This document shows positions 51,542-64,000 of a DNA stretch of 64,000 nucleotides, piece by piece. The notes under the pieces are model-generated. The model was not told the origin of the DNA. It saw only the letters and a list, made by a program, of their open reading frames with translations, and ran no database searches. The translations under genes and the position numbers were made by a program. The number at the start of each line of letters is the position of its first letter. Position 1 is the first letter of the stretch. Location of the stretch: NCBI RefSeq assembly GCF_029948125.1, contig NZ_JASAMB010000022.1, forward strand, positions 62,001 through 126,000, written 5' to 3'. This stretch comes from Catellatospora sp. KI3. GTDB lineage: Bacteria; Actinomycetota; Actinomycetes; Mycobacteriales; Micromonosporaceae.

Positions 51542-52714
51542 TCAGCTGCCCTGGTCGAACTTCTCCCAGGTGCCGATCGCGGTGCGGTTGGCGATGAGCG
51601 CGGCCGCTCCCGCGTTCTCCGCCACCACGTACTTGCCGTTGGCCTGGGCGCGCAGGCTGATCGTGCCGTCGCTGTTGACGATGCGGGCGAACGTCTCCCA
51701 CGGGCCGACGGCGGTCCGGTTGGCGATCAGGGGGTTGGCCCCGGCGTTGTCGGCGCAGACGTACTTGCCGTTGGCCCGGGACTTCAGCGCGATGTTGCCG
51801 CCGCCCAGGTCGACGATGTCGTACCGCTCGGACAGGGTGGCCGCGGTGGTGGCGCCGGCTATCAGGTTGCCGGTGCCGCCGCCGGGGGCGGTCACGAACT
51901 TGCTGTTGGCGCGCGCCTTGAGGGTCGCGCCGGTGACCGGCGGCTGCGAGGTGGGCGTGCAGTCGGCCGCGACCGAGCCGGCCGCGATCTGCAGGCCGCC
52001 GAGCAGCATCTTCGTGAAGTTGGTGTCGGTGTAGCTGGCCTCGGTGTGGCCGAGGCCGGTGTACCAGGAGCGCCCGCCGCCGTAGTTCTGGCACCAGGTG
52101 ATCGGGTGGTCGCCCATGGTGCCGCCGGTGTACGACGCCTCGTTCAGGTTCATCAGCACCCGCACGTTGGGGCGGGGGTTGGTGCGGTAGTTGTACCACT
52201 CGTCCGAGCGGCTCCAGGTCGACGGCAGGTGCGCCGTCGAGGCGTTGACCGGGGTCTCCACCCGCACCTGGGCGGTCTGGATCGCCGGGTGGGAGGAGAA
52301 GTACGCGCCGACCAGGCCGCCGTACCAGGGCCAGTCGTACTCGGTGTCGGCGGCGGCGTGCACGCCGACGTAGCCGCCGCCGGCGGCGATGTAGTTCTGG
52401 AACGCGGTCTGCTGGGTGGCGTCGAGGACGTCGCCGGTGGTCATCAGCCACACCACCGCCTGGTACTGGGCCAGGTTGGCGGCGTTGAACTGGGTCGCGT
52501 CCTCGGTGGCGGTGACGGTGAAGCCGTTGGCCGAGCCGAGGGCCTGGATGGCGGCGATGCCGTTGGGGATGGACGAGTGCCGGAAACCGGCGGTCTTCGA
52601 GAACACCAGGACCTTCGTCAGCGGCGCCGCCGCTGCCGGGGTCGCCGGGCCGACCAGCACCGTCGCCACCAGGGCGACGAGGGCGGCGGCCAGGGACAGG
52701 AGGCGTTTGCGCAT
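51542..52714 (-). CDS. Secreted ThuA-domain protein with fascin-like beta-trefoil modules
   Basis: The 390-residue protein has a signal peptide (MRKRLLSLAAALVALVATVL, cleavage near AAAA at about 29). A ThuA-type class I amidotransferase-like domain follows (31-245, VLVFSKTAGFRHSSIPNGI, GGGYVGVHAA, GRSWYTGLGHTEASY). The C-terminal region of about 125 residues has fascin-like repeats (KARANSKFV, KSRANGKYVCADN, RAQANGKYVVAEN). ThuA domains occur in proteins of sugar catabolism, often secreted in actinomycetes; the enzyme activity is uncertain. The same modules occur in the partial GH-like protein at 61067, whose promoter block is nearly identical. Confidence 0.85.
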   Translation of the reverse strand: MRKRLLSLAAALVALVATVLVGPATPAAAAPLTKVLVFSKTAGFRHSSIPNGIAAIQALGSANGFTVTATEDATQFNAANLAQYQAVVWLMTTGDVLDATQQTAFQNYIAAGGGYVGVHAAADTEYDWPWYGGLVGAYFSSHPAIQTAQVRVETPVNASTAHLPSTWSRSDEWYNYRTNPRPNVRVLMNLNEASYTGGTMGDHPITWCQNYGGGRSWYTGLGHTEASYTDTNFTKMLLGGLQIAAGSVAADCTPTSQPPVTGATLKARANSKFVTAPGGGTGNLIAGATTAATLSERYDIVDLGGGNIALKSRANGKYVCADNAGANPLIANRTAVGPWETFARIVNSDGTISLRAQANGKYVVAENAGAAALIANRTAIGTWEKFDQGS

Positions 52715-52913
52715 GTGCCCGCTCCTTCGCGCGGAGGTGCCGCGGTCGGCCGGGCGCCGGCCGCGACGGGAGGGGGACACGCCGGTCTGGCGGCCTGGGG
52801 CAGGGCCGGGCAAGGGGGTACGCGGCGACGCAGACACGGAGCATCCTTCATGCCGTTCGCGGGGGTCGCCCGCGAACCGGAGCCGGGTCGCCGATCCGAG
52901 GCTCCAGGTGGAC

Positions 52914-52961
52914 ATTGACATCCGTGAAACATCCTATACGGATCTTGGTCGTGAACGGAAG
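52914..52961 (-). promoter_or_regulatory. Conserved promoter block upstream of the ThuA-like gene
   Basis: On the minus strand it reads CTTCCGTTCACGACC, then AGATCCGTATAGGAT and GTTTCACGGATGTC. The block before the gene at 61067 agrees at nearly every position. TATAGGAT contains the actinobacterial -10 TAGGAT. It lies about 200 bases upstream of the ThuA-like start, so the mRNA would have a long leader. Confidence 0.7.
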
Positions 52962-53157: not shown

Positions 53158-54297
53158 GTGCGTACCGGACTTTGGCTCATCGGAGCACGTGGTGCCGTGG
53201 CGGTGACCGGCATCGTGGGCGCGCTCGCGGTCCGGGCCGGCCTCGCGGAACCGACCGGCTGCGTGACCGAACTGCCCCCGCTGCGCGACGCTGCGCTGCC
53301 CACCCTCGCCGACCTCGTCATCGGCGGCCACGACGTCGTCGAGCTCGGCCTCGACAAGAAGGCGCAGGCGTTGGTCACCGCCGGCGTCCTGCCCGCCGCC
53401 ATCGTGGCCGCCGTCGCCGACGACCTGGCCGCCGTGGAGGCCGAGCTGCGCTGCGCCCCGCACGGCGCCACCCAGCACGAGACCGCGGTCCGCATCGCCG
53501 CCGACCTGGACGAATTCCGGCGGCGCCACGCCCTGGCGCACGTGGTGGTGGTCAACGTCGCCTCCACCGAGGCGGCGGCGGTGCCGCACCCCGCGCACGC
53601 CGACCCCGAGGCGCTGGCTGCCGCGCTGCACACCGAGCAGGTGCTCCCGCCCAGCTCGCTCTACGCGTACGCGGCCTTCACCGCCGGGTGCTCGTACGTG
53701 GACTTCACCCCGTCGACCGGGGCGCGGCTGCCCGCGCTGCACGAGCTGGCGCTGCGGGCCGGGGTCGCCTACGCCGGGCACGACGGCAAGACCGGCGAGA
53801 CGCTGCTCAAGTCGGTGCTGGCGCCCATGTTCGCCATGCGCAACCTGCATGTGCGCTCCTGGTCGGGGACCAACCTGCTCGGCGGCGGCGACGGGGCCAA
53901 CCTGGCCCGGCCCGACGCCAACGCGGCCAAGGTCGCCAGCAAGCAGCGGGTGCTCAAGGAGACGCTGGGCTACGAGCCGGAGGGCCACACCCGCATCGAC
54001 TACGTGCCCGACATCGGCGACCTGAAGACCGCCTGGGACCTGATCACGTTCAGCGGGTTCCTGGGCAGCCGGATGCGGCTGGAGTTCACCTGGCACGGCT
54101 GCGACTCGGCGCTGGCCGCGCCGCTGGTGCTGGACCTGGCCCGGCTGACCGCCGCCGCGCACGCGCACGGGGTGTCCGGTCCGCTGCCGCAGCTCGCGTT
54201 CTTCTTCAAGGACCCGCTCGGCGACGTCCCGCACGGGCTGGCCGACCAGTGGCGTGACCTGTGCGCATGGGTGGGGGGCTGGGATGCGGCTGCGTGA
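53158..54297 (+). CDS. Inositol-3-phosphate synthase-type enzyme, first gene of an ebo-type cluster
   Basis: The 379-residue enzyme belongs to the myo-inositol-1-phosphate synthase family, which cyclises glucose 6-phosphate with bound NAD. It has Rossmann GARGAVAVTGIVG at 9-21, YVDFTPSTGA, HDGKTGETLLKSVLAPMF with the catalytic Lys pair, NLLGGGDGANL, and HGCDSALAAPLVLDL. It starts an operon of seven overlapping genes and overlaps the prenyltransferase gene by 14 bases. In cyanobacterial ebo clusters this position is taken by a dehydroquinate-synthase-like EboD, so here a different sugar-cyclase may play the same part (inference). Confidence 0.88.
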   Translation: MRTGLWLIGARGAVAVTGIVGALAVRAGLAEPTGCVTELPPLRDAALPTLADLVIGGHDVVELGLDKKAQALVTAGVLPAAIVAAVADDLAAVEAELRCAPHGATQHETAVRIAADLDEFRRRHALAHVVVVNVASTEAAAVPHPAHADPEALAAALHTEQVLPPSSLYAYAAFTAGCSYVDFTPSTGARLPALHELALRAGVAYAGHDGKTGETLLKSVLAPMFAMRNLHVRSWSGTNLLGGGDGANLARPDANAAKVASKQRVLKETLGYEPEGHTRIDYVPDIGDLKTAWDLITFSGFLGSRMRLEFTWHGCDSALAAPLVLDLARLTAAAHAHGVSGPLPQLAFFFKDPLGDVPHGLADQWRDLCAWVGGWDAAA

Positions 54298-55123
54298 CCT
54301 GGCCGAGCTGGTCCGCGCGCCCGCCGCGCTGTCGGTGCCCGGCGACGCCGTCGCCGGGGCCGCCGCCGCGGGCAGCCTCGACGGGCGCACCGCCGGGGTC
54401 GCCGCCGCCTCGGTCTGCCTGTACTGGGCCGGGATGGCCGCCAACGACTGGGCCGACCGGGACCTCGACGCGGTCGAGCGCCCCGAGCGGCCGATCCCGT
54501 CCGGCCGCGTCGCGCCGAACACCGCGCTGGCGATCGCGGGCGGCCTGACCGCCGCCGGGCTGGCGCTGGCCGCCGCGTCGGGCGGGCGCCGCACGCTGGG
54601 CACGGCCACCGCGCTGGCGGCGGCGGTCTGGGCGTACGACGTGCAGGCCAAGAACACCGCCGCCGGCCCCGCCGCGATGGCGGTGTGCCGGGGTCTGGAC
54701 GTGCTGCTGGGCGCCAGCACCGGCCGGATGCGCCGCGCGGTGCGCCCGGCGTTGACCGTCGCCGCCCACACGTACGCGGTGACCGCGCTGTCGCGGCGCG
54801 AGGTCACCGGAGCCGACCGGTCGCTGCCCGCGCTGACGCTGGCCGGGACCGCCGCCGTCGCGTACGCGGCGTCCGGTCGGCGCGGCTGGGCCCCGGTCGG
54901 CCTGGCCGCCTGGTACGCGCTCAGGTTCGGGCGGGCGCAGCGCGACGTGCTGCGCGATCCTGCCGCCGGACGCGTGCGCGCCGCGGTCGGCGCGGGGATA
55001 ACCTCGCTGCCCGCACTGCAGGGCGCGCTGATCGCCGCGTCGGGGCGGCCGCTGGCCGGGGCACTGGTCGCGGCCGGTGCCCCGGCCGGGGCGAAGCTGG
55101 CCAGGGCGGTGTCCCCGACATGA
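54284..55123 (+). CDS. eboC: UbiA-type prenyltransferase, EboC-like (SCO3242 family)
   Basis: This 279-residue integral membrane protein has about seven hydrophobic segments. Its first Asp-rich motif NDWADRDLD at about 62-70 is followed by RPERPIPSG, as in UbiA enzymes. The second Asp motif is degenerate (YDVQAKN). It belongs to the SCO3242-like group encoded in ebo-type clusters. It would attach a polyprenyl group, perhaps from the operon's own polyprenyl synthase, to a polar head. Its start overlaps the upstream gene and its stop overlaps the next (ATGA). Confidence 0.87.
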   Translation: MRLRDLAELVRAPAALSVPGDAVAGAAAAGSLDGRTAGVAAASVCLYWAGMAANDWADRDLDAVERPERPIPSGRVAPNTALAIAGGLTAAGLALAAASGGRRTLGTATALAAAVWAYDVQAKNTAAGPAAMAVCRGLDVLLGASTGRMRRAVRPALTVAAHTYAVTALSRREVTGADRSLPALTLAGTAAVAYAASGRRGWAPVGLAAWYALRFGRAQRDVLRDPAAGRVRAAVGAGITSLPALQGALIAASGRPLAGALVAAGAPAGAKLARAVSPT

Positions 55124-56424
55124 GCATCCGCTGGGGGTACGGCACCAACGGCTTCGCCAACCACCGCCTCGACGACGCGCTGGCGATCATCGCCGAGCTC
55201 GGCTACCAGGGCGTGGCGCTGACCCTGGACCACGGCCACCTCGACCCGTACGCCCCCGACCTGCGCGCCCAGGTCGACCGGACCGCGCACCGGCTCGCCG
55301 AGCTGGGCCTGACCGTGGTGATCGAGACCGGCGCCCGCTACCTGCTCGACCCCCGGCGCAAGCACAGCCCGACGTTCCTGCACGACGACCCGGCCCCGCG
55401 GCTCGACTTCCTGAAACGGGCCGCCGACATCGCCGCCGACCTCGGCGCCCAGGCGATGTCGTGCTGGTCCGGCGTACGCCCCGCGCACGTGCCCGAGGCC
55501 GCGGCCTGGGACCGGCTGGCCGACGGCGTGGCCCAGGTGCTGGAGCACGCGCGGCAGCGGCAGGTCGTGGTCGGCTTCGAGCCGGAGCCCGGCATGCTCG
55601 TCGACACCCTGGCCACCTGGCGCGAGCTGCGCGACCGGGTCGGCGACGGGCTCGGGCTCACCCTCGACATCGGCCACTGCCGGGCCAACGAGCCCGCCGA
55701 CGTGCCCGAGTGCGTCCGGCAGGCCGGGCCGCACCTGGTCAACGTGCAGATCGACGACATGGTCCGGGGCGTGCACGAGCACCTGGAGTTCGGCGAAGGT
55801 GAGATCGACTTCCCGCCGGTGCTGCGGGCGCTGGCCGACACCGGCTACGACGGCCTGGTCGCGGTCGAGCTGGCCCGGCACTCGCACGCCGCGCCCGAGG
55901 TGGCCGCCCGGTCGCTCACCTTCCTGCGCGCGGCGCAGTGGCTCGGCGACGCCCTCGCGCGGGTGCGCCGCGACCCGGCGGCGCTGGCCGTGCTGCTGCC
56001 CGCCGCCCGGCGCCACGTCGGCGCCGACGGTGCCGAGGGCGCCCGGATCCGGCTGCTGCAGGCCACCCTGCTCTCGCCAGAGCAGGCCACCGACCTGTAC
56101 CGCTACGGCGACAACGACGAGAAGCGGGCCGTGCTGCGCGCCTGGCCCTCGGCCGAGCTGCTGCGCGACGCGCTGCGCAGCAACGACACCCGGCTGGTCG
56201 CCGCCGCCCTCGGCCAGGGCGCGGAGCTGCTCAGCGACGCCGAGTGGCGCCAGGCCGTGCTCAAGAGCGTGTTCATGGGCCTGCCGCTGGCGCAGGTGCA
56301 CGACCTCGACCGCCGCGCCGACGCCGAACTCGGCCGGATGCTCGACGGCCTGCGGCGCGAGCGTGAAGCCGCCGGCCGGACCATGCCCGCCGACGCCGTA
56401 CGCCTGCTGGAAAGGCTGCTGTGA
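55120..56424 (+). CDS. eboA: Fusion of TIM-barrel sugar-phosphate isomerase and EboA domain
   Basis: The 434-residue protein has an N-terminal xylose-isomerase-like TIM barrel (about 1-265, RWGYGTNGFANHRLDDALAI, GFEPEPGML with a metal Glu, DIGHC with Asp and His, and EFGEGEIDF). An all-helical EboA domain follows (about 268-434, LRAAQWLGDALARVRRDPAAL, ATLLSPEQATDLYRYGDNDEKRAVLRAWP). In cyanobacteria EboA is a separate protein. The fusion implies that the two act together. The start overlaps the eboC stop (ATGA) and its stop overlaps the eboB start (TGATG). Confidence 0.87.
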   Translation: MSIRWGYGTNGFANHRLDDALAIIAELGYQGVALTLDHGHLDPYAPDLRAQVDRTAHRLAELGLTVVIETGARYLLDPRRKHSPTFLHDDPAPRLDFLKRAADIAADLGAQAMSCWSGVRPAHVPEAAAWDRLADGVAQVLEHARQRQVVVGFEPEPGMLVDTLATWRELRDRVGDGLGLTLDIGHCRANEPADVPECVRQAGPHLVNVQIDDMVRGVHEHLEFGEGEIDFPPVLRALADTGYDGLVAVELARHSHAAPEVAARSLTFLRAAQWLGDALARVRRDPAALAVLLPAARRHVGADGAEGARIRLLQATLLSPEQATDLYRYGDNDEKRAVLRAWPSAELLRDALRSNDTRLVAAALGQGAELLSDAEWRQAVLKSVFMGLPLAQVHDLDRRADAELGRMLDGLRREREAAGRTMPADAVRLLERLL

Positions 56425-57272
56425 TGCGCATCTTCGACCCGCACATCCACATGACCTCACGCACCACCGACGACTACGCGGCGATGGCCGCCGCGGGCGT
56501 GCTCGCCCTGGTCGAGCCCGCGTTCTGGCTCGGCCAGCCGCGTACCAACCCGGGCTCGTTCACCGACTACTTCGACGCGCTGCTGGGCTGGGAGCCGTTC
56601 CGGGCCAGCCAGTTCGGCATCCGGCACCACTGCACCATCGCGCTGAACCCGAAGGAGGCCAACGACCCGCGCTGCCGCGAGGTGCTGCCGCTGCTGCCGC
56701 GCTACCTGGCCAAGGACCGGGTCGTCGCGGTCGGCGAGATCGGGTACGACTCGATGACCCCCGACGAGGACGAGGTCTTCGCGGCGCAGCTCGAAATGGC
56801 CGTCGACGCCGACCTGCCGGCCCTCGTGCACACCCCGCACCGGGACAAGCTCGTCGGCACCCGGCGCAGCATCGACGTGGTCAAGGAATCCGGCATCGAA
56901 CCCGGCCGGGTCGTGCTGGACCACCTCAACGAGCTGACCGTCGCCGAGGTCGCCGCCTCCGGCTGCTGGATGGGCTTCTCGATCTACCCCGACACCAAGA
57001 TGTCGCCGGACCGGATGGTCGCCATCCTGCGCGAGCACGGGCTGGAGCGGATGCTGGTCAACTCCGCGGCCGACTGGGGCAAGTCGGATCCGCTGCTCAC
57101 CTTGCGCACCGGGGAGGCGATGCTGGCGGCCGGGTTCACCTCCGACGACGTGGACCGGGTGCTGTGGCGCAACCCGGTCGAGTTCTACGGGCAGTCCAAG
57201 CGGCTGGACCTCGACGGGATCAGCGACGGGGCGACGTACGCGGGCAACTCGATCCTGCGCGGGGGGTCGTGA
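56424..57272 (+). CDS. eboB: TatD-like metal-dependent hydrolase, EboB
   Basis: The 282-residue TatD/amidohydrolase-fold protein has metal ligands HIH at residues 7-9 (FDPHIHMTSR), GEIGYDS (Glu), VHTPH and DHLNE (His) and a final Asp in NSAADWG. It is the EboB position in ebo clusters. The ATG at 56424 is the start; the GTG just before it is unlikely. The substrate is unknown, probably a phosphate or ester of the pathway product. The stop overlaps the next ATG. Confidence 0.88.
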   Translation: MRIFDPHIHMTSRTTDDYAAMAAAGVLALVEPAFWLGQPRTNPGSFTDYFDALLGWEPFRASQFGIRHHCTIALNPKEANDPRCREVLPLLPRYLAKDRVVAVGEIGYDSMTPDEDEVFAAQLEMAVDADLPALVHTPHRDKLVGTRRSIDVVKESGIEPGRVVLDHLNELTVAEVAASGCWMGFSIYPDTKMSPDRMVAILREHGLERMLVNSAADWGKSDPLLTLRTGEAMLAAGFTSDDVDRVLWRNPVEFYGQSKRLDLDGISDGATYAGNSILRGGS

Positions 57273-58390
57273 TGCGGCTGCGCAGAGCCGACGGCTCGAC
57301 CGTGCACCTGGCGTACTGCACGAACGTGCACCCGGCCGACGACCTGCCCGGGGTGCTGGCGCAGCTGGACCGCTTCGCGGTCCCGGTACGCGAACACCTC
57401 GGCGCAGACCTGCTGGGGCTGGGCCTGTGGCTGGCCGCGCCGGTCGCGTCCGCGCTGGCCGCCGACCCGGCGCTGCGCCGCAAGGTGCGCGCCGAACTGT
57501 CCGCCCGGGGGCTGGAGACGGTGACCCTCAACGGCTTCCCCTACCAGGCCTTCCACGCACCCGTCGTCAAGCACGACGTCTACCGTCCGGACTGGACCGA
57601 TCCGCGCCGCCTGCGCTACACCCAGGACCTCGCGATCGTGCTGGCCGACCTGCTGCCCGACGACGCGGCGCGCGGCTCGATCTCGACCCTGCCGCTGGCC
57701 TGGCGCGAACCGTGGGACCGGCCCCGCTGGCAGGCCGCGCGGGCCCAGCTGCGCGCGCTGGGGCAGGCCCTGGCCGACAGCGACCGGGAGATCCGGGTGG
57801 CGCTGGAGCCGGAACCGGGCTGCGTGGTGGAGAACATCGACCAGGCCGTGGCGGCGCTGTCGGGGGTCGGCAGCGACCGCCTGGGCATCTGCGTCGACCT
57901 GGCCCACCTCGCCTGCGCCTGGGAGGACCCGCGCGACGCGGTGGCCAAGCTCGAAGCCGCCGGGGTGCCGGTGGTGAAGGTGCAGGTGTCGGCGGCCCTG
58001 GAGGTCGAGGACCCGCAGAATGCGGCCGAGGTGCTGGCGACGTACGCCGAACCCCGGTTCCTGCACCAGACGCGCAGCGCGGGCGGGGCCGTCTTCGACG
58101 ACCTGCCGCAGGCGCTGGCCTCCTCGGCGAACGGGCCGTGGCGGGTGCACTTCCACGCCCCGCTGCACGCCGCCCCGCCCGCCCCGCTGGCCGCGAGCAC
58201 GCCCGTGCTCGTCGAGGGCCTGGCCGCGCTGCTGGCGGGCAGCTCGTGCGACCACTTCGAGGTGGAGACGTACACCTGGGAGGTGCTGCCGAAGGCGGCC
58301 CGCCCGACCGACGACGCCGGGCTGGCCGCGGGCATCGCCGCCGAGCTCGCGTACGCCCGTGCCCAGATGTCGACGTGTGGGGTGAGCTGA
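57272..58390 (+). CDS. eboE: EboE-type metabolite traffic protein (TIM barrel)
   Basis: The 372-residue xylose-isomerase-like TIM barrel is of the EboE group. It begins VHLAYCTNVHPADDLPGVLAQL. Metal-site candidates are in ALEPEPGCVVEN (Glu) and CVDLAHLAC (Asp/His), with HFHAPLHAAP and FEVETYTWEVLP near the end. In cyanobacteria Ebo proteins are needed to bring a scytonemin precursor to the periplasm. Here the cargo is unknown. It is translationally coupled to eboB. Confidence 0.88.
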   Translation: MRLRRADGSTVHLAYCTNVHPADDLPGVLAQLDRFAVPVREHLGADLLGLGLWLAAPVASALAADPALRRKVRAELSARGLETVTLNGFPYQAFHAPVVKHDVYRPDWTDPRRLRYTQDLAIVLADLLPDDAARGSISTLPLAWREPWDRPRWQAARAQLRALGQALADSDREIRVALEPEPGCVVENIDQAVAALSGVGSDRLGICVDLAHLACAWEDPRDAVAKLEAAGVPVVKVQVSAALEVEDPQNAAEVLATYAEPRFLHQTRSAGGAVFDDLPQALASSANGPWRVHFHAPLHAAPPAPLAASTPVLVEGLAALLAGSSCDHFEVETYTWEVLPKAARPTDDAGLAAGIAAELAYARAQMSTCGVS

Positions 58391-58391
58391 G

Positions 58392-59765
58392 ATGGACCGT
58401 CCCGTGGTGGTGCTCGACGTGGTCGGGCTGAGCCCGCGCCTGCTGGCGCACATGCCCCGGCTGCGCGCGGCGTTCGCGACGGGCGCCACCGCCCGCCTCG
58501 ACCCGGTGCTGCCCGCCGTCACGTGCAGCGTGCAGGCCAGCTTCCTCACCGGGCTGACCCCGACCGACCACGGCATCGTCGGCAACGGCTGGTACTTCCG
58601 CGACCTCGGCGACGTGCTGCTGTGGCGCCAGCACCACGCGCTGGTCCAGGGCGAGCGGGTGTGGGACGCGATCCGGCGCGCGCGCCCCGGCTACACCGTG
58701 GCCAACATCTGCTGGTGGTACGCCATGGGCGCCGACGTCGACTGGACGATCACGCCGCGGCCGATCTACCGCGCCGACGGCCGCAAGGACCCCGACTGCT
58801 ACACGGTCCCGGCGGAGCTGCACGACGAGCTGCCGGTGTTCCCGCTGTTCACGTACTGGGGGCCGGGGGCGGGGATCGCGTCGTCGGCGTGGATCGCGGC
58901 CGCGGCCGTACACGTGATGCAGACCCGCGACCCGGACCTGACCCTGGTCTACCTGCCGCACCTCGACTACGACCTGCAGCGCTTCGGCCCGTCCGGCCCG
59001 GAGGCGGCCAAGGCCGCCGCCGAGCTGGACGAGGTGCTCGGCCCGCTGCTGGACGCGGCCGCCGCCCGGGGCGCCGCCATCGTGGCCCTGTCCGAGTACG
59101 CCATCACCGACGTCTCGAAGCCGGTGCACGTCAACCGCGCCCTGCGCGAGGCCGGGCTGCTGCGCGTGCACACCCAGGACGGCATGGAGTACCTCGACCC
59201 CTGGACCTCGCGCGCCTTCGCCGTCGCCGACCACCAGCTCGCCCACGTGTACGTCCGCGACCCCGCCGACACCGCCGAGGTCGCCAAGCTCTGCGCCGGG
59301 CTGCCCGGCGTCGCGCAGGTGCTCGACGAGGCGGGCAAGGCCGAGCACGGCCTGGCCCACGAGCGCAGCGGCGAACTCGTCCTGCTCGCCGAGCCGGACG
59401 CCTGGTTCACGTACTACTACTGGCTCGACGACGCCCGCGCGCCCGACTTCGCCACCCACGTCGAGATCCACCGCAAACCGGGCTACGACCCCGCCGAGCT
59501 GTTCTTCGACCCGGCCGGGCCGGGCGCGGCCAAAGCCCGCGCCGCCAAGGCACTGGTACGCAAGAAGCTGGGCCTGCGCTACCGCTTGAACGTGGTCGGC
59601 CTGGACGCCGGAGCCGACGCGGTCCGGGGCTCGCACGGGCTGCTGCCGCCCTCCGACCAGGATGCCCCGGTGCTGCTGTGCACCGAGGCCGCCGGGCTCG
59701 GGCAGCGCATCGCCGCGACCGAGGTCAAGGCGCTGCTGCTGCGGCTGGCGGGGGTGGCAGAGTAA
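58392..59765 (+). CDS. eboF: EboF-like nucleotide pyrophosphatase/alkaline-phosphatase-fold protein
   Basis: The 457-residue protein is of the alkaline phosphatase superfamily. Asp9 in VVLDVVGLSP and the nucleophile Thr44 in LPAVTCSVQASFLTG are in place. DHGIVGNGW, LPHLDYDLQRFGP (Asp, His) and SEYAITDVSKPVHVN complete the two-metal site. It would split a phosphoanhydride or phosphodiester, for instance of a nucleotide-activated or prenyl intermediate. The start is one base after the eboE stop and the TAA overlaps the next ATG. Confidence 0.88.
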   Translation: MDRPVVVLDVVGLSPRLLAHMPRLRAAFATGATARLDPVLPAVTCSVQASFLTGLTPTDHGIVGNGWYFRDLGDVLLWRQHHALVQGERVWDAIRRARPGYTVANICWWYAMGADVDWTITPRPIYRADGRKDPDCYTVPAELHDELPVFPLFTYWGPGAGIASSAWIAAAAVHVMQTRDPDLTLVYLPHLDYDLQRFGPSGPEAAKAAAELDEVLGPLLDAAAARGAAIVALSEYAITDVSKPVHVNRALREAGLLRVHTQDGMEYLDPWTSRAFAVADHQLAHVYVRDPADTAEVAKLCAGLPGVAQVLDEAGKAEHGLAHERSGELVLLAEPDAWFTYYYWLDDARAPDFATHVEIHRKPGYDPAELFFDPAGPGAAKARAAKALVRKKLGLRYRLNVVGLDAGADAVRGSHGLLPPSDQDAPVLLCTEAAGLGQRIAATEVKALLLRLAGVAE

Positions 59766-60934
59766 TGACGCTGGCCCCGGCCGTGCCGACGCTGCCCGCG
59801 CGGGTGGACGCGGTGCTGGCCCGGTTCCTCACCGCCCGCGCGGTGTTCGGCCGCGACGAGGACCTGCGCGACCTGCTCGCCGTCATCCGCCGCTTCGTCC
59901 TGCACGGCGGCAAGCGGCTGCGCCCGGCCCTGTGCTACTGGGCCTGGCACGGCACCGGCGGCACGGACGGGCAGGACGAGGAGGCCGTCGTCGCCGGGGC
60001 GGCGCTGGAGCTGTTCCACTGCTTCGCCCTGATCCACGACGACATCATCGACGCCAGCGGGTTCCGGCGCGGCCGCCCGTCGCTGCACGAGGAGTTCGGG
60101 CAGCGGCACGCCGGTCAGGGCTGGGGCGGCGACGCGGCGGCGTTCGGCCGCGGCGCCGCGATGCTCTGCGGCGACCTGTGCGCGATGTGGGCCGAGGAGC
60201 TGCTCGCGGCCTGCGGCGCCGCGCCCGACCGCCTGCGCGCCGCGCAGTCCCTGTTCACCCTGATGCGCGCCGAAGCCATGGCCGGCGAGTACCTGGACCT
60301 CCTGGGCACCGCCACCGGCCACCGCCCGTCCCCGCCTCCGCTTCAAGTTGCCGGGCAATCGGGGGAGACAGTGCCCCCTATCGCCCCGATCGCCCGGCAA
60401 CTTGAGCGAGGTCGGGGCGAGGGGCCGGATTCGCGGCGGGTGCTGCGGGTGGTGCGGTTGAAGACGGCGCGGTACTCGATCGTGCGGCCGCTGCAGATCG
60501 GGGTGGTGCTGGCGGGGGCGCAGGAGCGGGCCCTGGCCGCGTGCGCGGCGTTCGGGGAGCCGCTGGGGCGGGCGTTCCAGCTGCGCGACGACGTGCTGGG
60601 GGTGTTCGGCGATCCGGTCGAGACCGGCAAGTCGGTGCTGGACGACCTGCGGCAGGCCAAGCCGACGATGCTGCTGGCCGAGACCTGGGCGCGGGCGGCG
60701 GGGTCGGACCGGGAGGTGCTGCGTACGCATGTGGGGGAGCCGGAGCTGGACGAGGCGGGGGCGGCCCGGGTGCGGGAGGTGATGACCGGATGCGGGGCGC
60801 TGGCGGCGGTGGAGCGGCGGATCGGCTCGGCGCACCGGCGGGCCCGGTACGCGCTGGCGGCGTGGGAGTTGACGGAGCAGGCGCGGCGGGAGCTGTCGGG
60901 GCTGGCCGACGCGGCCGTGCGGCGATCTCGTTGA
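59765..60934 (+). CDS. Polyprenyl diphosphate synthase with in-frame palindromic insert
   Basis: The 389-residue trans-isoprenyl synthase has a first Asp-rich motif DDIID at 92-96 and the second DDVLG at 275-279, with LHGGKRLRPAL before them. Between EYLDLLGTATG (175-185) and VVRLKTARYS (229-238) lies an extra stretch of about 40 residues. Its core (193-214) is encoded by a palindromic element. Homologues usually have a short loop there. The enzyme would supply the prenyl chain for EboC. It is the last gene of the operon; its ATG shares a base with the eboF stop. Confidence 0.88.
   Translation: MTLAPAVPTLPARVDAVLARFLTARAVFGRDEDLRDLLAVIRRFVLHGGKRLRPALCYWAWHGTGGTDGQDEEAVVAGAALELFHCFALIHDDIIDASGFRRGRPSLHEEFGQRHAGQGWGGDAAAFGRGAAMLCGDLCAMWAEELLAACGAAPDRLRAAQSLFTLMRAEAMAGEYLDLLGTATGHRPSPPPLQVAGQSGETVPPIAPIARQLERGRGEGPDSRRVLRVVRLKTARYSIVRPLQIGVVLAGAQERALAACAAFGEPLGRAFQLRDDVLGVFGDPVETGKSVLDDLRQAKPTMLLAETWARAAGSDREVLRTHVGEPELDEAGAARVREVMTGCGALAAVERRIGSAHRRARYALAAWELTEQARRELSGLADAAVRRSR
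60343..60405. repeat. Palindromic element inside the polyprenyl synthase gene (GTTGCCGGGCAA family, copy 2)
   Basis: TCAAGTTGCCGGGCAATCGG (from 60343) and its complement (to 60405) form a 22-bp inverted repeat with one mismatch around 19 bases. The same element is at 7668-7734, inside the ABC-like ATPase gene. It adds 21 codons without a stop and keeps the frame. Confidence 0.9.
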
Positions 60935-60964: not shown

Positions 60965-61009
60965 CTTCCGATCACGACTGTAGATCCTATAGGATATTTC
61001 ATAGATGTG
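60965..61009 (+). promoter_or_regulatory. Conserved promoter block upstream of the partial GH-like gene
   Basis: The 45 bases read CTTCCGATCACGACTG, then AGATCCTATAGGAT and ATTTCATAGATGTG, and match the block at 52914-52961 closely. ATCCTATAGGAT is a perfect 12-bp palindrome, and TAGGAT fits a -10 box. It ends 57 bases before the start codon. Confidence 0.72.
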
Positions 61010-61066
61010 ATTCCGGAAACACAGCTGACACCCTCACCCGATCCCGTCCCCCGGGAGGTCCAGCTC

Positions 61067-64000
61067 ATGCGCCAACGCACCGTCCCGCGCCTGCTCGCGG
61101 CAGCCGTGCTGGCCGCGGGCCTGCTCACCGCGGCCCCGGCCGGCCCGGCCGCCGCCTCGCCCACCGACGCCGCCTTCAACTCCGGCACCGGCGCGCTGAA
61201 CGTCGACTACGCCGGCTACCTGTCCAAGCACGACCTCGTCTACAACAAGCCCAACACCAACCCGCTGCACGGCCTCACCGTCGGCAACGGCCGCACCGGT
61301 GCCATGGCCTGGTCGGCCAACGGCCTGACCATGCAGGTGTCCGGCGTCGACCTGTCCCAGCAGTCGGCTTTCGCGGCGGGCAACCTGAACTTCAACACCA
61401 GCCCGTCGCTCGACTCCGGCTACACCACCTACCAGCAGCGCCTGTCGCTCTATGACGGCACGCTGACCACGAAGTACGACGGCAACCGCACCGTCACCGT
61501 CATGGGGTCGCCCAACTCCGAGGTGATGGGCGTCCACGTCGACGATTCGCGCGGCGGCGTGGCCGGCGCGACTCTGGAGCTGAGCCTGTGGGACCCCAAC
61601 GGGGTCTCCAACAGCGCCGACGTGCCGAACCTGACCACCTGGCGCACCGTGCAGACCGGCTCGGACGCCTCCGCCGCCTGGTTCAGCCGGGGCCAGGCCG
61701 ACCCGAACAACTTCGGCTACACCTTCGCCGCCACGGTCGAGGGGGCGGCGTACTCGGCGTCGGTGGTCAACGGCACCCGGGTCCGGTTGAGCATCACCCC
61801 GACCAGCAGCTACACCATCTGGTTCACGGCGGCCAGCCGGCTCAACTCGCCGAACCTGGACTCGGTCGCCCAGGCCAAGAACCAGCTCGCCTCGGTCAAG
61901 TCGACCGGCTACGCCACCACGCTGAACAACTACCGGAACTGGTGGCACAGCTTCTGGCAGAAGTCGTTCGTGCAGTACTCGAACTCCGCCGGCGACGCAG
62001 ACTACCTGGAGAACGTGTACTACCTGGCCACCTACATGATCGCGGCGGGCGGGCACGGCAACTACCCGTACCACTTCATCAACGGCGTGTTCCGGGCCAC
62101 CGGCGACCAGACCAAGTGGAGCAACGGCTACTGGTACTGGAACCAGCGCGACGTCTACAACTCGTTCTTCGCCAGCAACCACGCCGACCTGATGGCGGGC
62201 TTCAACAAGCTCTACAGCCGCAACTTCAACGCGCTGAAGGCGTACACGCAGACGCGCTACGGCACCGACTCGCTGTGGGTGCCGGAGACGATGGGCTGGG
62301 ACGGCAACGCCCGCGGCACCATCGGCAGCGACTTCGTCAACGACATCTACTCCACCGGCACCGAAGCCGCCTACAACATGTACCTGCAGTACAAGTACAC
62401 GAACGACACGACCTACCTGCGTGACGTCGCGTACCCGTACATGCGGGAGGCGCTGCGGTTCTACCAGAACCGGTTCCAGCTGATCAACGGCAGGTATCAG
62501 ATGCCGACCTCGAACGCGCACGAGACGTACTGGGACGTGCGCAACGCGATCACGGACCTGGCCGCGGTGCGGCTGCTGGCGCCGCTGACCATCCAGGTCA
62601 GCACGCAGCTCGGGCTCGACTCGGGGCTGCGCGCGGGCTGGCAGAACCTGGTCGACAACCTGTGGCCGTACCAGGTGTCCAACAACGCCTGGCTGCCGCA
62701 CGACCCGCCGACGGCGCAGACGCGCAACGGCGAGAACGTGTCGGCCGAGCTGATCTGGCCCTATGACCGCACGGGCATCGGCGCCGCCGACTACGGCACG
62801 GCCGTGAACACGTGGAACGTGCGGCCCAACCCGTACAGCAACGTGTGGGCCAACGACCACGCGCAGGCGGCCCGCCTGGGCCTGGGCGACCAGGCGTTCA
62901 GCGGCATGCGCCTGATGCTGCAGCGCTACCAGAACTACCCCAACGGCATGACCAACAACACCAACGGGGTCTTCGAATACCTCGGCATCCACCTGGTGGC
63001 GATGAACGAGTCGCTGCTGCAGAGCTACAACGGCCGGATCCGGGTGTTCCCGGCGGTGCCGACCGACTCCTCGATGGTCACCAGGTTCACGCTGCTGGCC
63101 CAGGACGGCTTCCTGGTCAGCTCGGAGCGCGAGGCCGGTGAGATCAAGTACGTCGGCCTGAAGAGCCAGTTCGGCAAGGACGCCCGCGTGGTCAACCCCT
63201 GGGGCACCCAGCAGGTCCGGGTGCGCCGCACCTCCGACAACGCGATCATCACCACCTCCACCGCGGCCGAAGTCACCTTCAGCACCGCCGCCAACACGGT
63301 CTACGTGCTGGAACGCACCGCCAAGCCGCTGACGAACTACAGCGCGGCCACGCTGACGGGCACCGCCAACAACGACGTGAAGTCGCTGCGCAACACCGCC
63401 TCGACGCTGGGCCTGCCCGGCGGTGCGGTCGGCGGCCTGGTCAACGACACCGAGCTGAGCTACGACGCGAACTGGTTCCAGACCACGAACCGGGGCTACG
63501 GCGACTACAACGACGACACCCACCACACGACCACGGTCAACGCGGCGGCGTCGTACACGTTCACCGGCACCGGGGTCGAGTACCTGTCCGAGCGCTTCAG
63601 CGACATGGGCAACGTCGACGTGTACCTGGACAACGTCCTCCAGGCCAACGTCAACCTGAACGTCGGCGGCGCCCGGCAGGCGCAGCAGGTGGTCTGGTCC
63701 AAGACGGGCCTGGCGAGCGGCCAGCACACCATCCGCATCGTCAACAAGACCACCTCGGTGGCGATCGTCGACGCGCTGCGGATCACCACCGGCGGCACCC
63801 CGCCCGGCACCACCTACGTCGGCCTGAAAGCCCAGGCCAACGCGCAGTGGGTGTCCGCGCCCAACGCCACCACCGCGCTCATCGCCAACAAGACCGCGGT
63901 CGGGACCACCGAGCAGTTCGAGGTGGTCGACCGGGGCGGCGGCTCGGTGTGGCTGCGCTCGCGCGCCAACGGCCAGTACGTCTGCGCCGAGAACGCCGGA
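61067..64000 (+). CDS. Secreted multidomain glycoside hydrolase-like protein, 3' end beyond the window
   Basis: At least 978 residues are visible. A signal peptide (cleavage near PAAA at about 29) precedes a beta-sandwich region (about 45-270, LHGLTVGNGRTGAMAWS, QVSGVDLSQQ). An alpha/alpha-barrel region follows (about 290-690, YYLATYMIAAGGHGNYPYHFINGVF, ETYWDVRNAITDLAAVRLL). The order is like GH95/GH65-type enzymes and DUF5703 proteins. Next come a golvesin/CBM-like domain (about 793-907) and a fascin-like module from about 916. GGGAGGT lies eight bases before the ATG. The exact glycan target is unknown. The promoter block is shared with the ThuA-like gene. Confidence 0.82.
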   Translation, partial: MRQRTVPRLLAAAVLAAGLLTAAPAGPAAASPTDAAFNSGTGALNVDYAGYLSKHDLVYNKPNTNPLHGLTVGNGRTGAMAWSANGLTMQVSGVDLSQQSAFAAGNLNFNTSPSLDSGYTTYQQRLSLYDGTLTTKYDGNRTVTVMGSPNSEVMGVHVDDSRGGVAGATLELSLWDPNGVSNSADVPNLTTWRTVQTGSDASAAWFSRGQADPNNFGYTFAATVEGAAYSASVVNGTRVRLSITPTSSYTIWFTAASRLNSPNLDSVAQAKNQLASVKSTGYATTLNNYRNWWHSFWQKSFVQYSNSAGDADYLENVYYLATYMIAAGGHGNYPYHFINGVFRATGDQTKWSNGYWYWNQRDVYNSFFASNHADLMAGFNKLYSRNFNALKAYTQTRYGTDSLWVPETMGWDGNARGTIGSDFVNDIYSTGTEAAYNMYLQYKYTNDTTYLRDVAYPYMREALRFYQNRFQLINGRYQMPTSNAHETYWDVRNAITDLAAVRLLAPLTIQVSTQLGLDSGLRAGWQNLVDNLWPYQVSNNAWLPHDPPTAQTRNGENVSAELIWPYDRTGIGAADYGTAVNTWNVRPNPYSNVWANDHAQAARLGLGDQAFSGMRLMLQRYQNYPNGMTNNTNGVFEYLGIHLVAMNESLLQSYNGRIRVFPAVPTDSSMVTRFTLLAQDGFLVSSEREAGEIKYVGLKSQFGKDARVVNPWGTQQVRVRRTSDNAIITTSTAAEVTFSTAANTVYVLERTAKPLTNYSAATLTGTANNDVKSLRNTASTLGLPGGAVGGLVNDTELSYDANWFQTTNRGYGDYNDDTHHTTTVNAAASYTFTGTGVEYLSERFSDMGNVDVYLDNVLQANVNLNVGGARQAQQVVWSKTGLASGQHTIRIVNKTTSVAIVDALRITTGGTPPGTTYVGLKAQANAQWVSAPNATTALIANKTAVGTTEQFEVVDRGGGSVWLRSRANGQYVCAENAG

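Follow-up and report, generated by a model that had tools for sequence, protein, structure and literature searches.

Which product does an ebo-type gene cluster make when an inositol-phosphate synthase stands where the cyclase EboD is encoded elsewhere? The question is raised by seven contiguous plus-strand open reading frames at 53158-60934 of the window, by which we mean the whole 64,000-nucleotide stretch analyzed (contig C15, positions 62001-126000, of the 8.2 Mb genome of Catellatospora sp. KI3). They encode a myo-inositol-1-phosphate-synthase-like protein (Ino1), the prenyltransferase EboC, a protein that joins a TIM barrel to EboA, then EboB, EboE, EboF and, last, a polyprenyl diphosphate synthase; reading frames and domain scores agree with the preliminary description of seven overlapping or abutting genes of these types. 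The sole junction without overlap, EboE/EboF, is a 1-base gap, and because all other junctions overlap, the seven genes are likely to form a single transcript. The order Ino1-EboC-TIM-EboA-EboB-EboE-EboF is found again in relatives, and the arrangement is therefore not due to chance. The cluster of this soil actinobacterium probably makes a lipid-tailed ring that derives from a sugar. We favor, as reasonably probable, a lineage variant of the ebo pathway: a dedicated Ino1, usually with a TIM-barrel enzyme, replaces EboD, EboC prenylates the cyclitol and the product acts at or across the membrane.

The cyclase EboD appears to have been replaced by Ino1, usually along with the TIM enzyme: gene content splits between the two cyclases, and Ino1 keeps its active-site residues and stands apart from housekeeping Ino1. 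One draw of 246 Actinomycetia genomes contained cluster-type Ino1 in 60, EboC over its cut-off in 60 and EboE over its cut-off in 64 genomes, cluster-type being defined as at least 300 bits, a line drawn after a score gap had been seen (lowest 326, next match 226). Ino1 and EboC occur together in 59 genomes, the 60th Ino1 genome (G415) having fragments of EboC at the ends of two contigs (L178/L179), and EboE passes its cut-off in 60/60 Ino1 genomes. EboE over the cut-off without cluster-type Ino1 was found in four genomes: G376 has an ebo cluster without Ino1 and TIM, and G385, G409 and G504 have EboE alone, with no other ebo matches within 20 kb. With up to seven candidates scored per genome, we saw no EboD orthologue in any of the 246 (best EboD-query match 160 bits, 35% identity), so the absence of EboD noted in the preliminary description stands, but not as a departure from what is usual in these bacteria. 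The best EboD match of the host genome (E 2.5e-28) lies within the range of the other 245, and an EboD gene elsewhere in that genome was rejected at the sensitivity used.

The EboD query does score 316-710 bits for 16 plasmid records from Proteobacteria, Deinococcus, a cyanobacterium and a member of the Bacteroidota; the cyanobacterial record has no EboE match. In the part of the loci scanned with EboD queries, L159-L162 alone gave matches, and the window cluster was not matched. The 48 plasmid records with EboE divide into 29 with Ino1, 15 with EboD, 4 with neither and 0 with both. The survey of family co-occurrence and of exclusivity between the cyclases that had been suggested at the outset thus came out, in the samples searched, in favor of Ino1 occupying the place of EboD.

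We assembled 82 clusters through EboE or EboC that also contain EboB and EboF (four draws, one fetched in part; window excluded, no duplicates among themselves). Ino1 is present in 74 of them (as a fragment in L137) and TIM in 75; five of the eight lacking Ino1 are truncated by the end of a contig. Ten further stretches drawn in this way lack EboB or EboF and were left out; they hold EboE alone, are cut contigs or, in the case of L093, a reduced cluster EboC-TIM-EboE-polyprenyl synthase with no Ino1, EboA, EboB or EboF matches in 20 kb. EboB, EboF and the other core genes accompany Ino1 in 42/45 stretches drawn through Ino1, a search that favors close relatives and finds Ino1 by construction; the remaining three end at or shortly after EboC. 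Three of these 42 are shared with the 82 and two are alike, giving 120 distinct clusters, which, coming partly from related genomes, are not independent. Ino1 in ebo clusters is the rule among the sampled Actinobacteria, and the first gene of the window cluster is conserved beside ebo genes, on which the preliminary description had made its pathway idea depend. A wider draw across the phylum gave an EboE match in 14/296 genomes (13 over the cut-off).

EboE also occurs by itself. Matches at L086, L098-L102, L168-L170 and L180-L182 have no other ebo gene in the fetched stretches when window and Streptomyces queries are used, and proteins of the L086, L168 and L169 type may be distant EboE relatives. 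At L166:11983-13161 an eboE gene without other ebo genes lies in a type II polyketide cluster that also has glutamine synthetase and purB genes; comparable surroundings are seen for the complete Ino1-ebo cluster of L190.

At the level of sequence, the window Ino1 has both domains and the active-site residues of a myo-inositol-1-phosphate synthase. The equivalents of D225, N255, L257, K274, K278, K306, D332 and K367 are invariant in 127/127 rows (123 distinct) of an alignment that includes Gemmatirosa and L177 and excludes haloarchaea, fragments shorter than 330 aa and other Ino1 types. Of these, D225, L257 and K278 are positions that we take to belong to the active site. The closest solved structure is Archaeoglobus fulgidus Ino1 (1u1i, E 1.8e-67), and Lys274, Lys306, Lys367, Asn255 and Asp332 are named for this enzyme, AfMIPS, in passages of PMC5614600.

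The host genome holds four PF01658 genes: the window copy, one at C1:38954 and one each on C56 and C23. The C56 protein passes the cut-off for mycothiol INO1 (TIGR03450, 658 of 638 bits), the C23 protein is a divergent relative (158 bits), and the window Ino1 reaches 33 bits against the same housekeeping model, below its equivalog cut-off of 638. In a tree of 60 hand-chosen proteins, 47 actinobacterial ebo-type rows form a single clade (100/99), far from the mycothiol type, and the YcaO-linked type stands apart (95/99). Haloarchaeal and Gemmatirosa rows adjoin the actinobacterial clade in a weakly supported branching order. Score, C56 copy and tree position together rule out a housekeeping role for the window Ino1, which is neither the only Ino1 of the organism nor grouped with housekeeping enzymes, the two features that the preliminary description had named as fatal to its idea.

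Two Ino1 copies of the genus fall into different subclades of the tree, and 11/11 genomes of the genus searched, the host included, have two or more EboE genes above the cut-off. The C1 copy belongs to a second complete Ino1-ebo cluster (L075, G000:C1:25000-44900), which has no polyprenyl synthase match; on its flanks are an aldo/keto reductase gene and a MiaB-like radical SAM gene. Another Ino1 clade lies in a different gene cluster (L171, L172, L173, L185, L192; hosts are Actinobacteria, Roseomonas and Hymenobacter), with a TIM isomerase beside Ino1 in 5/5; the scanned or annotated L171, L185 and L192 carry HD or hypothetical, methyltransferase, Gfo/Idh/MocA, MBL-fold and YcaO genes.

Beyond Actinobacteria, all our clusters come from plasmid records. 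On a Gemmatirosa plasmid, TIM, Ino1, EboC, EboF, EboB and an EboG-like stretch share a strand, and EboE lies on the opposite one. Plasmids of Halobaculum, Natronococcus and Halocatena encode EboB, two TIM proteins, EboC, Ino1 and EboF; EboA found no match in these three clusters, and their TIM proteins score 150-175 bits with the TIM profile compared with 33-49 bits for EboE. The part that these Ino1-type clusters have in common is thus Ino1, TIM and EboBCF. A fourth haloarchaeal record, from Halomarina, has the same kind of Ino1 with glycosyltransferases in place of ebo genes.

The proteins encoded with Ino1 were compared with known families and structures. The TIM barrel of the fusion protein (AlphaFold model, mean pLDDT 90.6, residues 214-226 low) matches UlaE and ketose 3-epimerases in a Foldseek search, and E154, D183, H186, Q210 and E250, which presumably bind metal, are conserved in at least 95% of 123 rows. 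Its EboA part, modeled as an all-helical domain at the C-terminus, scores 118 bits with the EboA-domain model NF035938 (cut-off 50) and 47 of 320 with the full EboA-family model NF035937. In EboB, H7, H9, E105, H136, H167 and D217 are conserved in at least 95% of 134 rows. EboC reaches 129 bits with the EboC equivalog NF035940, under the cut-off of 250, and belongs instead to the SCO3242 family NF045897. Its first motif (N54, D55, D58, D62) is invariant and D119 of the second nearly so in 27 aligned members, including EboD-type and archaeal ones. The solved structure closest to the EboC profile is archaeal digeranylgeranylglyceryl-phosphate (DGGGP) synthase (6m31, E 4.6e-18), in agreement with a remark in PMC6282210, although EboC falls below the cut-off of the DGGGP synthase model PRK12882 (52.8 of 296 bits). 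Profiles made from the Ino1-type genes recognize the EboB and EboF proteins of EboD-type clusters (357-457 and 600-714 bits, respectively); the TIM profile found no match in the EboD-type loci profiled (L159-L162, L187-L189), and EboD-type Ketogulonicigenium has a separate sugar isomerase downstream. Close to their ebo genes, the EboD-type loci L187, L188 and L189 share a "ferritin-like protein" gene and one for a large hypothetical protein. We rejected the TIM-EboA fusion as a new feature, since isomerase-EboA hybrids of Actinobacteria are mentioned in a passage of the 2016 paper PMC5133447.

The polyprenyl synthase is present in 37/42 Ino1-drawn and 15/82 EboE/EboC-drawn clusters, mainly in Micromonosporaceae (10/15 family-f1 clusters among the latter set), and polyprenyl synthase genes also adjoin Ino1 in two f8 loci (L068 and L155). 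The window gene contains an in-frame insertion with a palindromic repeat (hairpin, arms about 60344-60404, arm CAAGTTGCCGGGCAATCGGGG), shared among the relatives aligned with C. tritici alone (L005), whose Ino1 is 95% identical to that of the window. The arm matches 68 sites in the host genome with at most two mismatches, many paired 40 bases apart, and 0 in a reversed control; the repeat looks like a REP-type element within coding sequence.

What follows on every chemical step, on acceptor and chain length and on the role in the cell is inferred. The non-housekeeping Ino1, usually with the ketose-epimerase-like TIM enzyme, would turn a phosphorylated sugar into a cyclitol, the task of EboD elsewhere; in the simplest case the product would be inositol 1-phosphate. 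EboC may then attach an isoprenyl chain to the ring, most simply as an ether on inositol 1-phosphate, with the chain supplied in Micromonosporaceae by the polyprenyl synthase of the cluster. EboF, EboB and EboE could trim the phosphate or reshape the ring, and the product would act at or across the membrane, perhaps alongside secreted enzymes.

Several observations weigh against this scheme. Uncut clusters lack Ino1 (L069, L082, L126) or TIM (L082, L106, L110, L126, L138), L175 has no EboC, and in G518 the cluster retains an Ino1 fragment (L137) with the intact gene on another contig. A cluster-type Ino1 at L177:9363-10499 (one TGA flagged inside the match) has no ebo match in 20 kb and adjoins a 2204 aa ThuA-GSDH-PKD protein. 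The polyprenyl synthase is missing from most clusters outside Micromonosporaceae, for which reason we rejected it as a general part of the pathway; the earlier suggestion that the cluster brings its own chain-forming enzyme holds for the window and mainly for Micromonosporaceae. Chemically, an EboC homologue of marine flavobacteria farnesylates the aromatic 8-hydroxyquinoline-2-carboxylic acid (8-HQA) in vitro, and not a cyclitol, according to passages of PMC9235831. EboD-type cyclases, according to passages of PMC5133447, release phosphate and Ino1 keeps it, and the two types would therefore yield different products unless there are extra steps.

The surroundings of the clusters are rich in sugar enzymes. 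Genes for sugar-dehydrogenase-like proteins (GSDH), ThuA, 3-keto-disaccharide hydrolase or ScyE-like proteins adjoin 50/82 EboE/EboC-drawn, 31/42 Ino1-drawn and 79/120 distinct clusters, in 7/14 families, compared with 1/40 control stretches (fixed positions in 20 cluster-bearing genomes) and 0/13 other loci; the queries were taken from the loci themselves, so that one data set served both to find the association and to count it. ThuA lies beside 37/82, 14/42 and 50/120 clusters of these three sets, and 38/54 ThuA reading frames are at most 500 bases from the cluster. Some neighbors are giant proteins that join GSDH, ThuA, CBM6, PKD and 3-keto-disaccharide hydrolase domains, and many upstream proteins look secreted in a crude signal-peptide test, the ThuA protein of the window among them. 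A sugar ABC importer like that of L012, complete with its three genes, accompanies 25/42 Ino1-drawn and 9/82 other clusters; in L012 it follows a ROK gene and precedes a Gfo/Idh/MocA gene that adjoins Ino1. The window cluster has ThuA upstream and, downstream (L194), a protein with weak GH65N similarity, GSDH, ThuA plus 3-keto hydrolase, a second GSDH and importer genes for a binding protein and a permease. The second cluster of the host has no GSDH, ThuA, 3-keto-hydrolase, ScyE, Gfo or TIM neighbor in its 20 kb. Near 2/3 haloarchaeal clusters the annotation shows a gene for a PQQ-dependent sugar dehydrogenase or for ThuA. The association with GSDH-like, ThuA and 3-keto-disaccharide-hydrolase genes is new, and together with the importers such frequent, secreted-looking neighbors may point to a role other than natural-product secretion.

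These neighbors bear on the cellular role in different ways. The ebo proteins could, as has been suggested for Nostoc, move some other metabolite across the membrane, the prenylated molecule serving as lipid carrier and the cargo coming from a neighboring pathway. Such export would account for the varied pathways in or near which Ino1-ebo clusters lie: the calcium-dependent-antibiotic (CDA) genes, the type II polyketide cluster at L190, a condensation-domain gene about 4.6 kb away at L165 and ScyD/ScyE-family neighbors at two Streptomyces plasmid clusters (L164, L167). It is nonetheless unlikely in our estimate, since we recognized no natural-product pathway among the annotated neighbors of either host cluster and no transporter among the seven genes in domain and profile scans, and since sugar enzymes and importers are so frequent nearby. 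The sugar-enzyme neighborhood offers an alternative lead to simple export: the product might be a membrane-bound cofactor or acceptor for the secreted GSDH-like and 3-keto-glycoside enzymes encoded alongside. The excess over control stretches, its spread over families, the haloarchaeal cases and the flanks of the window cluster all speak for this possibility, which we still judge decidedly unlikely. No such neighbors occur at 32/82 clusters, including the second one of the host, and of the 17 GSDH genes in the host genome, which also has 11 ThuA genes in its 8.2 Mb, two are found on the contig of the window, farther downstream than the cluster; relatedness of the genomes and the origin of the queries weaken the counts further. 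We know of no biochemical precedent for such an accessory.

A narrower form of the idea seems quite improbable: an inositol-derived, prenylated membrane cofactor for secreted propeller-type sugar dehydrogenases and 3-keto-glycoside hydrolases, with an EboD-type counterpart from heptulose and ScyE as one client, the ring possibly being aromatised to a quinone-like form by dehydrogenase and TIM-barrel dehydratases. The kept active-site residues and the phosphodiesterase/pyrophosphatase family of EboF would also fit a plain inositol route, which makes or recycles free inositol for cellular use while EboC has an unrelated substrate; this we hold to be very improbable given the separate mycothiol-type Ino1 and the co-occurrence of the cluster type with EboE in 60/60 and with EboC in at least 59/60 genomes. 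We thus retain prenylation of a cyclitol made by Ino1 as the preferred reading.

Table. Genes of the ebo-type cluster and its immediate neighbors (coordinates of the window).
Feature	Position	Strand	Evidence
Ino1 (myo-inositol-1-phosphate-synthase-like sugar-phosphate cyclase, 379 aa, GTG start)	53158-54297	+	PF07994 161 bits, PF01658 110 bits
EboC (UbiA-superfamily prenyltransferase, SCO3242 family)	54284-55123	+	NF045897 SCO3242_trans 361 bits (cut-off 260)
TIM-EboA fusion (N-terminal ketose-3-epimerase-like TIM barrel, C-terminal helical EboA)	55120-56424	+	PF01261; EboA domain
EboB (TatD-like metal-dependent hydrolase)	56424-57272, alternative GTG 56421	+	PF01026 48.5 bits
EboE (xylose-isomerase-like TIM barrel)	57272-58390, alternative GTG 57269	+	NF035939 401 bits (cut-off 250)
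EboF (type I phosphodiesterase / nucleotide pyrophosphatase)	58392-59765	+	PF01663 218 bits
Polyprenyl diphosphate synthase	59765-60934	+	PF00348 155 bits, best stretch 226-332
ThuA-domain protein, divergent from Ino1; recurrent cluster neighbor	51542-52921	-	PF06283 265 bits
First downstream gene, runs off window	61007-64000	+	weak GH65N/DUF5703 matches

The ebo operon, eboABCDEF, is reported from eustigmatophyte plastids, Bacteroidetes, Cyanobacteria and others, and an isoprenoid-cyclitol product was proposed for it in 2016 from EboD and EboC (passages of PMC5133447, which also mention two Planctomycetes without eboD). The window cluster shares with it the EboA domain, EboB, an EboC-like UbiA protein, EboE and EboF in one operon as well as the isoprenoid-cyclitol idea, but has Ino1 for EboD, an extra TIM barrel fused to EboA, an added polyprenyl synthase and an EboC of the SCO3242 family, under the EboC equivalog cut-off. 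In Nostoc, five ebo genes are needed for scytonemin and the system has been assigned to export of the scytonemin monomer (passages of PMC6282210); eboA, B, C, E and F are shared with the window cluster, whereas the cyclase there is EboD. Streptomyces coelicolor SCO3242 and SCO3243, consecutively numbered, resemble the window in combining a SCO3242-family prenyltransferase with an inositol phosphate synthase, but are classed as CDA-cluster genes, and ebo is unmentioned in the relevant passages of PMC3610822. The word "inositol" is absent from the main text of PMC5133447 and from PMC6282210, and the literature matches listed, which mostly do not cover subscription journals and preprints, contain, in title, opening lines of the abstract or passages, no description of Ino1 replacing EboD.

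A second, unrelated cyclase in the EboD slot supports the published isoprenoid-cyclitol idea, and this exchange strengthens the pathway idea. The ebo genes are widespread in bacteria and algal plastids, and a well-studied cyclase in that slot makes the cyclitol guess testable, with glucose 6-phosphate as the likely starting substrate and in genera that include laboratory strains. The Gemmatirosa and haloarchaeal clusters and the linkage to GSDH-like, ThuA and 3-keto-disaccharide-hydrolase genes offer a new place to seek the function of the family.

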